Shown one piece after another: positions 46,721 through 52,100 of a stretch of 64,000 nt of DNA. Numbering within the stretch: position 1 is the stretch's first letter; each line of letters opens with the position of its first letter. Source of the stretch: Solobacterium sp. (GTDB taxonomy: Bacteria; Bacillota_I; Bacilli_A; Erysipelotrichales; Erysipelotrichaceae); NCBI GenBank assembly GCA_017941735.1, contig JAGAVW010000046.1:1-64000 (forward strand). The letters are read 5' to 3'. The position numbers were made by a program, and so were the translations under genes. The notes beneath the pieces are model-generated. The model made no database searches. It saw only the letters and a program-made list of their open reading frames with translations, and was not told the origin of the DNA.

Positions 46721-47789
46721 TAGCTTACTGCTAGTCGGTTGTGGAGGACAAAAACCAGCAGAAGAGACAGTAGATGCGCAAGACGCAAAAGAACTCTTCG
46801 GTTGCAACATAATCAATGTTTACAATGCAGGGGAGTACATTGGTGAAGATGTATTAGGAAACTTTGAAGAAATGTACACCGCAAAAGTAAACTATGAAAC
46901 ATTCGAATCCAATGAAACGATGTACACAAAACTCCTAGGTGGAAACGCCTATGATGTACTTGTACCTTCGGATTATATGATTGAGCGCTTAATCAGTGAA
47001 GACATGCTTCAACCAATAGACAAAGCGGCTATTACCAATTTAAGCCAAGTCAATCCAGATGTTCTTGAAATGCAGAAAGTATTTGATCCAAACTTAGAAT
47101 ATGCAGTTCCATATTTCTGGGGAACAGTAGGTCTTGTCTATAACAAAAACAATGTGGATCCTGCTGTGATTGAAGAAAAAGGTTGGGATATCTTACTTGA
47201 TTCCAATTACAAAGGACAAGTGTTCATGTACGATTCCCAAAGAGATGCCTTCATGGTCGCATTTAAAGCACTTGGTTATTCCATGAATACAGATAACGAA
47301 GCAGAGATTCATGCAGCTTATAATTGGCTTGTAAATGTAGATAAAGCAGTTGAGCCATCCTATGTAACCGATGAAGTCATTGATGCAATGCTCAATGGGG
47401 AAAAGGATATTGCGATTATGTATTCGGGAGATGCATCTTATGTATTAAGCGAAAATGAAGATATGGCATGGATTGAACCAAACCAAGGAACCAATGTTTG
47501 GGTAGATGCGATGGTCATTCCTGCAAACGCAACATGCCCAGGCTTAGCGAATGCCTTCATCAACTACATCACCGATTATGATGCTTCTTATGCAAACTCA
47601 GATGAGATTGGTTATACTTCTGTAAATAAAAAAGTATTTGAAGAATTATCTGGTGCAGGTGGAACTTATGAAGGAATTAATGCATATATTCCTAGAACGG
47701 GATATGAAAAAGATGAAGTATTCCACTATAACGAAATCCTAAGACAAGAATTAGGACACCGTTGGAACCAAGTTAAAATTGGTGGATAA
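46689..47789 (+). CDS. potD: polyamine-binding lipoprotein PotD
   Basis: 366 residues. Lipoprotein signal with LLLVGC, lipid Cys18. Then a type II periplasmic-binding fold: INVYNAGEYIGEDVLGNFEE, LVPSDYMIERLI, VPYFWGTVGLVYNK, GEKDIAIMYSGDASY. It catches polyamine outside and presents it to PotBC. Starts within potC (32-nt overlap) after GAAAGGAAAGAAG, so its translation is coupled. Last gene of the operon. Confidence 0.94.
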   Translation: MKQLMNVLLASSLLLVGCGGQKPAEETVDAQDAKELFGCNIINVYNAGEYIGEDVLGNFEEMYTAKVNYETFESNETMYTKLLGGNAYDVLVPSDYMIERLISEDMLQPIDKAAITNLSQVNPDVLEMQKVFDPNLEYAVPYFWGTVGLVYNKNNVDPAVIEEKGWDILLDSNYKGQVFMYDSQRDAFMVAFKALGYSMNTDNEAEIHAAYNWLVNVDKAVEPSYVTDEVIDAMLNGEKDIAIMYSGDASYVLSENEDMAWIEPNQGTNVWVDAMVIPANATCPGLANAFINYITDYDASYANSDEIGYTSVNKKVFEELSGAGGTYEGINAYIPRTGYEKDEVFHYNEILRQELGHRWNQVKIGG

Positions 47790-47792
47790 AAG

Positions 47793-47821
47793 ATAGACCC
47801 AACAAATGTTGGGTCTATTTT
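47793..47821. terminator. terminator after potD
   Basis: ATAGACCCAACA and TGTTGGGTCTAT form an almost loop-less 12-bp inverted repeat followed by TTTTTG; it reaches the last codons of the convergent gene at 47815. Confidence 0.88.
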
Positions 47822-48408
47822 TGATAATCAAAGGAGTATTTTTTAAAACAGGTCAAGACAAGAACAATTAGTAAGATGGGAATTGTTTTTGAAACAAGGA
47901 ATTCAAAAGGACTATAATCCAGCAACGGACTTTCATATTGCGTAATCATATAGAGGTTATAGGCAATTAAATAAATTAAATCGACTAAGATATTACCAAA
48001 ACCCAGAAACAATAGTTCTATTTTCGATAAGGCTTTGTGTTTATAAAAACGTATCAAACCAACAACACCAATAAAACCAATCGTAAAATATAAGATACCA
48101 ACAACAAAATCAATGATCTTCATCCCTGGAAATACATAATAAACACGTTCAATATAATAGAAAATCGAACCTTCATTTGCCATATCTAATATATAAGAAA
48201 GGCCATAATATAAACCTGTGATGGTTAAGAAACCAAGGGAAAAGGAGCTAATAATTACTAGAATCGCTAAGGCAAAGATAAATTTACGAATAAGCGAAGC
48301 ATCTTTGGTAGGGTAACTTGGAATAATCTTTTTCCCACAGTTTTTACAATACAAAGCTTCTTTATCTAATGGACTTCCACAATATTTACAATAATTGAAT
48401 TCGGACAT
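47815..48408 (-). CDS. zinc-ribbon membrane protein, unknown function
   Basis: 197 residues. An N-terminal zinc ribbon (CKYCGSPL and CKNCGKKI, four Cys in two CxxC pairs, residues 7-25), then a basic linker and about four membrane helices (residues ~40-190). Proteins with this layout are common in Bacillota and of unknown role. ATG 48408 is preceded on the minus strand by GATAAT with a 6-nt gap and no ribosome-binding site. Divergent from fruR across 93 bp. Confidence 0.8.
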   Translation of the reverse strand: MSEFNYCKYCGSPLDKEALYCKNCGKKIIPSYPTKDASLIRKFIFALAILVIISSFSLGFLTITGLYYGLSYILDMANEGSIFYYIERVYYVFPGMKIIDFVVGILYFTIGFIGVVGLIRFYKHKALSKIELLFLGFGNILVDLIYLIAYNLYMITQYESPLLDYSPFEFLVSKTIPILLIVLVLTCFKKYSFDYQK

Positions 48409-48442
48409 GTTTTTATTATCGTCAATTCGAATTCTTTTGTCT

Positions 48443-48482
48443 ATGATTAAAAATGATTAAAAATGATTGAAATTGATTATTT
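48443..48482 (+). repeat. four 10-bp direct repeats upstream of fruR
   Basis: ATGATTAAAA, ATGATTAAAA, ATGATTGAAA, TTGATTATTT follow each other with no gaps, so they lie on one face of the helix. They sit between the divergent start codons and end 7 nt before the fruR -10 (48490-48495), covering the -35 region. Tandem direct repeats are the usual kind of site for DeoR-family regulators of fru operons, so this is a strong FruR operator candidate. Confidence 0.7.
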
Positions 48483-48486
48483 GTTA

Positions 48487-48495
48487 TGCCATAAT
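48487..48495 (+). promoter_or_regulatory. extended -10 promoter of fruRKA
   Basis: TGC-CATAAT at 48487-48495, then 6 nt (GAAATC) and ATG 48502, without a Shine-Dalgarno site. Confidence 0.6.
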
Positions 48496-48501
48496 GAAAT
48501 C

Positions 48502-49254
48502 ATGATCATTGAGAAACGCTGGAATGAAATTCTAGATTTACTAGAGAACCATGACATGATGCAAGTGAAAGAGCTATCCGATGCGCTTGGAGTATCAGAA
48601 GCGACCATTCGTCGTGACCTTGTTGAATTAGATCGCTTAGGAAAGCTTGTCAAAGTACATGGGGGCGTTTTAAAAAAGGGCAATGACTTTGTGATGAAAG
48701 ATTTAAGTATGAGTGAAAAACACAACTTAAATCCAGAAGAAAAACAAAGAATTGCGAAATATGCCGCAAACCTAATAAAAGAAGAGGACTTCGTGTATAT
48801 CGATGCGGGTACAACAACCGAAGCTTTGGCTAAAGAAATCCAAGTGGAAAGTGCGACCTATGTGACGAATTCATTAACGGTAGCCCGTATTTTAATACAA
48901 AAAGGATTCCGTACCATTTTGCCAGGAGGAGAAGTCAAAACTTCTACCGAAGCAATGATTGGTTCAGAAACCATAGAAGCCATTTCCCGTTTCAATTTCA
49001 CAATTGGATTCTTTGGAACCAATGGCGTCAATGAGAAAAATGGATTTACGACTCCAGAAATGAATGAAGCAATGGTAAAAAAAGAAGCCATGAAACATAC
49101 CAAAGAACCATATGTCTTATGTGACCATAGTAAGTTTCAGATTATTTCGCCGATATCCTTTGCGGATTATGAGGCAGCGACGATTATTACAGATGCTTAT
49201 CCAAAGCATTTAGGGAAAAAGACAGCGAATGTATTGGAGGTGAAAGAAAAGTGA
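48502..49254 (+). CDS. fruR: DeoR-family repressor of the fructose operon
   Basis: 250 residues from ATG 48502. N-terminal winged HTH (MQVKELSDALGVSEATIRRD, then LDRLGKLVKVHGG), then the sugar-phosphate sensor domain with DAGTTTEAL and GFFGTNGVN. By family it senses fructose-1-phosphate made by FruA and is inactivated by it. Its GTGA overlap with fruK and the repeats in front show a self-regulated fruRKA operon. Longer frames upstream (from 48463) run through the promoter and repeats and are rejected. Confidence 0.9.
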   Translation: MIIEKRWNEILDLLENHDMMQVKELSDALGVSEATIRRDLVELDRLGKLVKVHGGVLKKGNDFVMKDLSMSEKHNLNPEEKQRIAKYAANLIKEEDFVYIDAGTTTEALAKEIQVESATYVTNSLTVARILIQKGFRTILPGGEVKTSTEAMIGSETIEAISRFNFTIGFFGTNGVNEKNGFTTPEMNEAMVKKEAMKHTKEPYVLCDHSKFQIISPISFADYEAATIITDAYPKHLGKKTANVLEVKEK

Positions 49255-50156
49255 TTGCGACGATTACATTCAATCCATCCCTAGACTACATTGTTCGAGT
49301 CGAAGATTTCAAAATAGGAGAAGTGAATCGCACCTATTATGAAAAAATCTTTGCGGGTGGAAAGGGAATTAATGTTTCCATTGTCTTAAAGAATTTGGGG
49401 CATGATAGTACCGCCTTAGGATTTGCGGCAGGCTTTACGGGGCAAGAAATGGCACGTAAGCTGACTGAAATGGGTGTCCATGCTGACTTTATTGAAGTGA
49501 AAGAAGGCTACACACGTATCAACGTCAAACTCAAATCAAACGAGGAAACGGAGATTAATGGACAAGGACCTAAGATTACAAAAGAGAATATCGATGCTTT
49601 GTTTGAAAAACTGGATGTATTAACAAAGGAAGATATCTTAATCATTTCAGGAAGTGTACCAAATACATTACCGGATGATATGTATGAACAAATCATGGAG
49701 CGTTTAAAGGAAAAGGACATTCCAATTGTGGTAGATGCGACAAAAGACTTATTAACAAATGTCTTACCGTATCATCCATTCCTCATTAAACCTAACAATC
49801 ATGAATTAGGTGAAATCTTCGATGTGCAATTAGAAACACGAGATAGTGTTGTGCCTTATGCAAAGAAACTACAAGAGCAAGGGGCACGGAATGTCTTAGT
49901 TTCAATGGCAGGCGAAGGGGCAGTCCTTCTAGCGGAAGATGGAAACGTGTATGCGAGTGAAGCACCAAAAGGAAAAGTTGTGAATTCAGTTGGCGCAGGC
50001 GACTCGATGGTAGCTGGATTTGTGGCTGGTTACTTAGAAACACACGATTATCAAACTGCGTTTGAAATGGGTGTATGTACAGGTTCTGCAAGTGCCTTTT
50101 CTGAAGAACTTGCAACAAGGGAAGAAATGGAAGCCTTACGCGCTTCTATGAAATAA
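49251..50156 (+). CDS. fruK: 1-phosphofructokinase
   Basis: 301 residues, GTG start at 49251 overlapping the fruR stop; GGAGG lies 11-13 nt before. PfkB fold: TITFNPSLDYIVRVEDF, AGGKGINVSIVLKNLG, and SVGAGDSMVAGF with the catalytic base Asp251. It phosphorylates fructose-1-phosphate to fructose-1,6-bisphosphate. Followed by fruA after 12 nt. Confidence 0.95.
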   Translation: MIATITFNPSLDYIVRVEDFKIGEVNRTYYEKIFAGGKGINVSIVLKNLGHDSTALGFAAGFTGQEMARKLTEMGVHADFIEVKEGYTRINVKLKSNEETEINGQGPKITKENIDALFEKLDVLTKEDILIISGSVPNTLPDDMYEQIMERLKEKDIPIVVDATKDLLTNVLPYHPFLIKPNNHELGEIFDVQLETRDSVVPYAKKLQEQGARNVLVSMAGEGAVLLAEDGNVYASEAPKGKVVNSVGAGDSMVAGFVAGYLETHDYQTAFEMGVCTGSASAFSEELATREEMEALRASMK

Positions 50157-50168
50157 AGGAGATAGAAT

Positions 50169-52100
50169 ATGCGTATTACAGACTTACTCAAAAAGGAAGC
50201 GATTCATCTGAATGCTTCCGCAAGCGACAAACTCAACGCGATTGATCAGTTGGTTGATTTGCATGTCAAAGCTGGCAACGTTAGTGATCGTGAAGAGTAC
50301 AAAAAAGCCATCTTAGCTAGAGAAGAAGAAGGCACTACAGGAATGGGAGATGGCATTGCCATTCCACATGCACGTTGTGCAGCAGTTAAAAATGCTGGCT
50401 TAGCTGCATTAACCGTTCCAAATGGGGTTGATTTCAATGCCTTAGATGGTGGTTTAAGTGATTTACTATTTATGATTGCAGCGCCAGCTGACAGTAACAA
50501 TCTTTACCTAGAAGTATTAAGCCGTCTTGCAACACTTTTAACGGATGAAGGCTTTGTAAAGAATTTACGTGCTGCAAAATCACCAGAAGAATTCTTACAA
50601 GTGATTGATGAAGCAGAAAAAGCGAGATTAGATGCCGAAGAAGAAAAACAAGCAGTTCGTGCTGCATCGAGTGAATTACCAGAGATTCTTGCGGTTACCG
50701 CTTGCCCAACCGGAATTGCGCATACCTATATGGCTGCTGAAAACTTAGAAAAGAAAGCAAAAGAAATGGGTATCAATTTGAAGGCAGAAACCCAAGGCTC
50801 GGTTGGTGCAAAAAATGTATTAACCGATGAAGAAATTGCGAATGCAAAAGGAATTATCATTGCTGCAGATAAGAATATTGATTTAGCACGTTTTGCTGGC
50901 AAACCAGTTTATGTAACTTCAGTGACAAAAGGTATTAATGAACCAGAAAACTTAATCAATAAGATTTTAAATGGAGAAGCTCCTATTCATGAAGCAAACC
51001 GTAAAGTCGAAGTTGCAGCTAGCAAAGAAGGAGATGGCATTTGGCATACCTTCTATAAGAATTTGATGAATGGTGTAAGCCATATGTTGCCATTTGTTGT
51101 TGGTGGTGGAATCTTGATTGCGATTGCTTTCTTGGTTGATGATCAATCCATCAATCCAGCAAACTTTGGATCCAATACACCAGTTGCTGCGTTCTTTAAG
51201 ACCGTAGGTGGCGAAGCATTTGGCTTCATGTTACCAATTCTTGCAGGTTACATCGCTATGTCTATTGCGGATCGTCCAGGTTTAGCAGTCGGCTTTGTCG
51301 GTGGTGCTCTTGCCAATGCAGGCTATAGCTTTGCAGCGCTTGCGAATCCAGATATGCCAGTTGTATCCGGTGGTTTCTTAGGTGCACTTCTTGCAGGTTT
51401 TGTGGGTGGTTATCTCACCTTATGGTTAGAAAGAGCTTGTGACAAATTACCAGATTCTTTAGAAGGTTTAAAACCAGTCTTAATTTATCCATTAGTTGGT
51501 ATTTTACTCATTGGTATCTTCATGTATTTGGTAAACCCACTCATGGCAGGTATTAATACAGCGCTCACAAACTTCTTGAATTCGATGGGTACCGCAAACC
51601 TTGTTCTATTGGGTGCAATCGTTGGTGGTATGATGTCCGTGGATATGGGTGGACCAGTTAATAAAGCAGCTTACGTATTTGGAACCGCAATGTTAGCAGA
51701 AGGAACCGATGCGGGTAAGATTATCATGGCAGCAGTCATGGTCGGTGGTATGGTACCTCCTCTTGCGGTTGCCTTATCCACAACATTCTTCAAGAACCGT
51801 TGGACAGAAGAAGAACGCAAAGCAGGTATCGTCAACTACATCATGGGCTTATCCTTCATTTCCGAAGGAGCAATCCCTTATGCAGCAGGTGACCCAATTC
51901 GTGTCTTACCTGCATGTATCATTGGTTCTGCTGTAGCAGGTGCAATCTCTGCTGCTGCGAAGTGTATGAGTCCTGCTCCACACGGAGGCTTCTGGGTAAT
52001 CGCTGTTATTTCGAATCCAATCATGTATGCAGTTGCATTACTTGTTGGTTCGGTTGTAGGCGCGCTTATCTTATCCATGTTGAAAAAACCAATTCAATAA
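50169..52100 (+). CDS. fruA: PTS fructose transporter EIIABC
   Basis: 643 residues, three domains in the order A-B-C. EIIA (1-150) with phospho-His67 in GIAIPHARC; EIIB (~172-270) with phospho-Cys179 in TACPTGIAHTYMAAE; EIIC (~290-640) with about nine membrane helices and the GGPVNKAAYVFG and EGAIPYAAGDP motifs. It brings in fructose as fructose-1-phosphate, the substrate of FruK. AAAGGAGATAG lies before ATG. Ends with a strong terminator. Confidence 0.96.
   Translation: MRITDLLKKEAIHLNASASDKLNAIDQLVDLHVKAGNVSDREEYKKAILAREEEGTTGMGDGIAIPHARCAAVKNAGLAALTVPNGVDFNALDGGLSDLLFMIAAPADSNNLYLEVLSRLATLLTDEGFVKNLRAAKSPEEFLQVIDEAEKARLDAEEEKQAVRAASSELPEILAVTACPTGIAHTYMAAENLEKKAKEMGINLKAETQGSVGAKNVLTDEEIANAKGIIIAADKNIDLARFAGKPVYVTSVTKGINEPENLINKILNGEAPIHEANRKVEVAASKEGDGIWHTFYKNLMNGVSHMLPFVVGGGILIAIAFLVDDQSINPANFGSNTPVAAFFKTVGGEAFGFMLPILAGYIAMSIADRPGLAVGFVGGALANAGYSFAALANPDMPVVSGGFLGALLAGFVGGYLTLWLERACDKLPDSLEGLKPVLIYPLVGILLIGIFMYLVNPLMAGINTALTNFLNSMGTANLVLLGAIVGGMMSVDMGGPVNKAAYVFGTAMLAEGTDAGKIIMAAVMVGGMVPPLAVALSTTFFKNRWTEEERKAGIVNYIMGLSFISEGAIPYAAGDPIRVLPACIIGSAVAGAISAAAKCMSPAPHGGFWVIAVISNPIMYAVALLVGSVVGALILSMLKKPIQ

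Follow-up and report, generated by a model that had tools for sequence, protein, structure and literature searches.

The FruR operator of Lactococcus lactis was reportedly described by Barriere et al. in 2005 (J Bacteriol 187:3752), and the same motif is said to have been reported in other low-GC Gram-positives. Potential binding of L. lactis FruR to a set of four non-palindromic sequence repeats is mentioned in PMC2222622, and PMC10765703 refers to a FruR motif described earlier in which the -35 box is overlapped by four 10-bp repeats placed next to each other. The L. lactis operator reportedly lies 5' of a DeoR-type fruR gene in a fruR-fruK-fruA cluster; the fruRBA operon of this species is listed under both CcpA and FruR (PMC3616900). 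Not all FruR proteins use a tandem-repeat site, since those of Staphylococcus aureus and Streptococcus gordonii are described otherwise. PMC10765703 presents S. aureus fruRKT as an operon in which a DeoR-type FruR precedes fruK and a fructose PTS gene and represses the operon, which fructose induces; the DNase I footprint spans -85 to -40, 5' of the -35 box, and the motifs described earlier, the four-repeat one among them, are absent there. The FruR of S. gordonii is described in PMC2222622 as recognising a palindrome. The same paper names fructose 1-phosphate as the principal effector described for FruR of S. gordonii and of Spiroplasma citri, the latter FruR being likewise the regulator of a fructose operon. 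A more distant parallel is AxgR of Caldicellulosiruptor, which PMC8579813 presents as a DeoR-family sugar regulator with a predicted tandem-repeat site, acting at another sugar locus; the likeness is one of description.

The locus studied here lies in a 64-kb stretch of DNA analysed as a whole (hereafter the window), from a genome of 1.95 Mb. It comprises fruR (48502..49254, + strand), fruK (49251..50156, + strand), encoding a 1-phosphofructokinase that scores above the cut-off of TIGR03828, and fruA (50169..52100, + strand), encoding a fructose PTS enzyme IIABC. The fruR product is a DeoR-family regulator of 250 aa, a family whose lengths range from 240 to 260 aa (PMC9439231), and both its HTH_DeoR and its DeoRC domains exceed the Pfam cut-offs. 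Because all FruR matches of this product in NCBIfam are under the curated cut-off, the name FruR is taken from the operon. A search of solved structures for FruR returned a sole match, 7l6l, which covers the sensor domain of a repressor of a deoxyribose operon and is uninformative on DNA binding, and a literature search for FruR combined with Erysipelotrich- returned an unrelated match only. The longest open reading frame of fruR opens at 48463, within the repeats described below; this start was rejected, since the match to the DeoR helix-turn-helix model starts with residue 6 when the product is read from 48502 and since fruR in two species of the same genus (L004 and L005) opens at the position equivalent to 48502.

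Upstream of this DeoR-type gene clustered with fruK and a fructose PTS gene, as in L. lactis, four contiguous 10-base repeats occupy positions 48443..48482 (+ strand) and read ATGATTAAAA ATGATTAAAA ATGATTGAAA TTGATTATTT without gaps. The likeness to the L. lactis operator, also made of four adjacent 10-bp direct repeats, is one of description. An earlier note on this DNA had reported four gapless repeats between the divergent starts at 48408 (- strand) and 48502 (+ strand), and direct reading, self-similarity and simulations all bear this out. Shifted by 10 bases, the array agrees with itself at 24 of 30 positions, which is the maximum of the window over shifts 6-15, the best value at any other shift in the 64 kb being 20. 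Among 60 sequences of 64 kb simulated with a first-order Markov model, the maximum at shift 10 was 22 and a value of 24 was not reached at shifts 8 to 12; neither was it reached at shift 10 when a stretch of 93 bp with the local composition was simulated 3000 times. The array is a real feature beyond chance, and the earlier observation is correct.

The array also stands apart in the genome. Over the whole 1.95-Mb assembly, the 16-base pattern ATGATTRAAAATGATT matches only within this array, and so do the three exact matches of a looser two-unit pattern, which gives 134 matches in the genome with up to two mismatches vs 36 for the reversed control, an excess that weighs against the operator reading. 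The exact patterns thereby revealed no further FruR target in the assembly. In a motif scan of 1.14 of the 1.95 Mb, the array scored 31.6 and the next independent site 16.6, with a motif that had the window in its training; both kinds of scan leave room for weaker FruR sites elsewhere in the genome. Finally, a search for cre-like sites with at most one mismatch to the cre consensus found 39 in the window and none between 48409 and 48501, so that the interval between the two start codons differs in this respect from L. lactis, another species, where CcpA is listed in addition to FruR.

The repeats had also been proposed to reach the -35 zone of fruR, which agrees with a consensus scan that places a -35 hexamer, TTGAAA (48467..48472, + strand), inside the third repeat. 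It is followed, after a 17-bp spacer, by a -10 hexamer, CATAAT (48490..48495, + strand), preceded by TG and located 6 bases upstream of the ATG. TTGAAA-17-CATAAT agrees with the consensus at 10 of 12 positions. The start site being predicted from this consensus match, the array extends to -20 of the putative fruR promoter and covers its -35 box, an overlap also described for the L. lactis repeats. On the opposite strand, the divergent gene is preceded by a -35-like hexamer, TAGACA (48438..48443, - strand), whose outermost base coincides with base 1 of the array, in repeat 1, and by a -10-like hexamer, GATAAT (48415..48420, - strand), again 6 bases upstream of the ATG; TAGACA-17-GATAAT likewise agrees with the consensus at 10 of 12 positions. 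Over the whole scanned stretch, 10 promoter-like sites were found vs a mean of 12.8 after shuffling, that is, no excess, so the argument for the two promoters comes from their position and, for fruR, also from conservation, a -10-like hexamer being present 6 bases before the fruR ATG in L004 and L005 as well. The best site of the scan, with 11 of 12 matches (47889-47918, + strand), lies antisense inside the divergent gene and is directed at fruR.

No Shine-Dalgarno word occurs in the 15 bases checked before either start codon. In a survey of 1.14 Mb of the genome with 938 open reading frames of 100 codons or more, the ATG was preceded at a gap of exactly 6 by a -10-like hexamer with a -35 partner in 16 cases, an excess over the other gaps (outside 5-7), which averaged 3.5 and peaked at 8. 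This set includes starts apparently fixed by their products (MCGRY... and MLGIDIV...), and the absence of Shine-Dalgarno words within it is partly forced by the position of the hexamer. From these sequence features, a minority of the genes of this genome, fruR and its divergent neighbour included, seem to be expressed as leaderless messages. At L083 (13163-13958, - strand), an open reading frame whose product starts MKKSKAEIRIRQQKLLDYL and by eye resembles a DNA-binding regulator shows the same spacing of 6 bases between a -10-like hexamer and its ATG.

FruR was then sought in 149 relatives and 272 genomes of the family. The two same-genus species mentioned above carry a close fruR-fruK-fruA operon, with identities to the window of 70% (L004) and 68% (L005) for FruR and of 81% and 77% for FruK. 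In the alignment of the three species, 39 of the 40 operator columns are invariant, a figure that hinges on the placement of one gap in L005, against 5 of 34 columns just upstream, 13 of 19 between the array and the ATG, and 34 of 59 in the opening part of the gene. The array is thus the most conserved of the four stretches compared.

Beyond the genus, a 10-bp tandem unit resembling WWTGANTGAW is common 5' of FruR homologues linked to fru genes and seldom seen 5' of DeoR homologues that lack this link. A first set of 53 homologues (L003-L055) was scored over shifts 6 to 15, with ties counted, and was divided by FruK matches after many of the upstream sequences had already been inspected. The best shift was 10 at 17 of the 19 loci where fruR is followed by fruK, at 14 of the 21 where it diverges from fruK, and at 1 of 13 in a third class having no fruK match or only a kinase of 30-35% identity. 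A second collection of 48 further loci supplied a set of 32, ten of which repeat a genome already counted; there, the corresponding figures were 18/25 and 2/2, and 4/5 where no fruK was seen. The 16 loci of this collection without a FruR match had all been retrieved by FruK. These fruK loci (49-69% identity; L139-L144, L146-L148, L150, L153, L157, L159, L161, L163, L164) have no FruR homologue in the surrounding DNA, and their fru operons may be otherwise controlled.

For the final motif, 57 fru-linked loci were hand-picked, one per genome, and 14 unlinked loci with no fruK, or with only a 30-35% identical kinase alongside, served as controls. This rerun supplies the motif counts for fru-linked and unlinked loci given here and replaces a run on 30 fru-linked loci chosen after the periodicity result, in which 7 array-less fru-linked loci stood among the 20 controls, favouring the motif. 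The four-unit motif converges on TTTGAATGAA and carries 4.62 bits per unit, whereas 20 shuffled runs, made with fewer iterations, gave 2.19 at the most. The direction of fruR is shared by 43 of the 57 arrays. A held-out version was trained on 54 fru loci, the window, L004 and L005 being left out. It scores 28.0 for the array of the window and 29.3 and 28.8 for those of the two relatives, in register at -60, where 1000 shuffles of the upstream region of the window gave a maximum of 16.4. Above the 99% null level are 39 of the 57 fru-linked loci (24/34 on the same strand and 15/23 divergent), a proportion favoured by the 54 loci that had trained the motif, and 1 of the 14 unlinked DeoR homologues, which were outside training. 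Conservation of the unit 5' of related fru operons is thus a further trait shared with the L. lactis type. Among homologues with in-frame TGA codons, for which no fruK was seen and which were also outside training, 3 of 4 pass, being very T-rich and scored against a null unmatched to them. The presence of the 10-bp unit upstream of fru genes in relatives, which had been put forward as a check on the operator, therefore holds at many loci and not at all of them.

The 18 fru-linked loci under the motif level are L012-L014, L016, L017, L021-L024, L026, L027, L048, L126, L128, L133, L134, L136 and L166. Eight of them form a group of divergent fruR genes that seem to use another site. In this group (L016, L017, L021-L024, L026 and L027), several members share, by eye, an upstream stretch like CAATCAAATACTCAT, perhaps a different type of operator. 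Two other variations were noted. At L121 and L122, the DNA 5' of a divergent fruR holds a tandem array with a period of 10 bp, whose ATTCTACAAA-like units differ from the TGA core found elsewhere. At L129-L135 and L137, which are FruR homologues from small genomes, several of them with in-frame TGA codons, the upstream DNA is T-rich and has TTGGTT about every 10 bp in place of TTGATT, a weak pattern of low complexity.

Seated on the predicted fruR promoter, conserved across species and associated with fru operons, the array of the window is very probably a FruR operator of an already described type, and the recurrence of 10-bp arrays before many fru-linked FruR homologues supports the proposal of a tandem-repeat FruR operator at the fruR promoter. 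We consider it highly likely that the four repeats are the operator of the FruR encoded downstream, that bound FruR represses fruR-fruK-fruA and that fructose 1-phosphate releases it. The binding, the repression and the signal are inferred from characterised FruR proteins. FruR subunits would sit on successive 10-bp units, all pointing one way and lined up along nearly one face of the helix, so that the bound protein would mask the -35 box of the fruR promoter together with the beginning of its spacer and exclude RNA polymerase. The whole operon, fruR included, would be repressed as long as FruR is bound; fructose imported by FruA would arrive as fructose 1-phosphate, upon which FruR would be released and the operon transcribed. 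Self-repression would agree with the way the array overlaps the -35 box. The array is, in this sense, an ordinary and well-conserved switch, in an arrangement already described in Lactococcus. It adds, from a genome known from sequence alone, independent evidence by comparison for a FruR operator of tandem 10-bp units, and it suggests that relatives retain the 10-bp spacing even as the letters of the unit diverge. Since the motif has reportedly been described before in other low-GC Gram-positives, these results extend a known picture and help annotation; they otherwise describe textbook control of a sugar operon.

FruR might bind the same array and activate from it, a protein on an upstream unit contacting RNA polymerase. 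This is unlikely. The FruR of S. citri, in contrast to the repressor proposed here, is called a putative activator in the title of a work cited in PMC9439231 and PMC7071700, and homologues of the same class with in-frame TGA codons (L129-L131) have a 10-bp periodicity upstream, although in very T-rich DNA. However, an array extending to -20 and lying over the predicted -35 box is poorly placed for an activator; moreover, FruR of S. aureus is a repressor (PMC10765703), and PMC2222622 calls FruR a repressor in both S. gordonii and S. citri.

Runs of A every 10 bp directly 5' of two predicted promoters also evoke a structural role, in which phased A-tracts would bend the DNA, or a UP element would aid two back-to-back promoters, with no part for FruR. 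The motif makes this very improbable. Its strongest letters across fru loci are the T, G, A core and the following G, whereas the flanking A/T run alternates between A and T, and such a conserved core beside a variable run points to recognition by a protein rather than to DNA bending alone; furthermore, the array accompanies fru-linked regulators and rarely other DeoR homologues. Slippage can give rise to short tandem repeats, and chance may do so too, but a functionless repeat is scarcely credible for an array whose self-similarity is unreached in simulations and which is conserved beyond its flanks, as the best-conserved stretch of the four in three species.

With the array as FruR operator, there remains the gene on its other side (47815..48408, - strand), which, the earlier note had suggested, may be tied to sugar state through the shared region. 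It encodes a zinc-ribbon membrane protein of 197 aa that carries CxxC-x12-CxxC at its start and has some four hydrophobic segments; in Pfam, two zinc-ribbon scores fall narrowly under the curated cut-offs. The operator part of the note's interpretation finds support in the comparisons, and this tie finds none. Matches to the gene occur in 3 of the 272 family genomes, its own included, and the two in the 271 other genomes are weak (26 and 28% identity, E about 2e-6 and 3e-6). In L004 and L005, the zinc-ribbon gene is absent beside the fruR operator, and the divergent neighbours resemble, by eye, an HD-domain protein and an NAD-dependent epimerase. As the neighbours differ and homologues are scarce, the link to sugar state is without comparative support, and from this distribution the gene is probably a neighbour outside any conserved regulon. 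Since the divergent -35-like box touches the array, co-regulation in this species alone may nevertheless occur. It is conceivable, if rather doubtful, that a single FruR array ending on both -35 boxes switches two leaderless messages, starting at the A of both ATGs, and that an almost species-only membrane gene has in this way been captured under fructose control. At the other end of the zinc-ribbon gene, there follows a terminator-like hairpin (47793-47818, - strand); it adjoins the end, at 47789, of a gene on the + strand and, judged by eye, may serve both genes.
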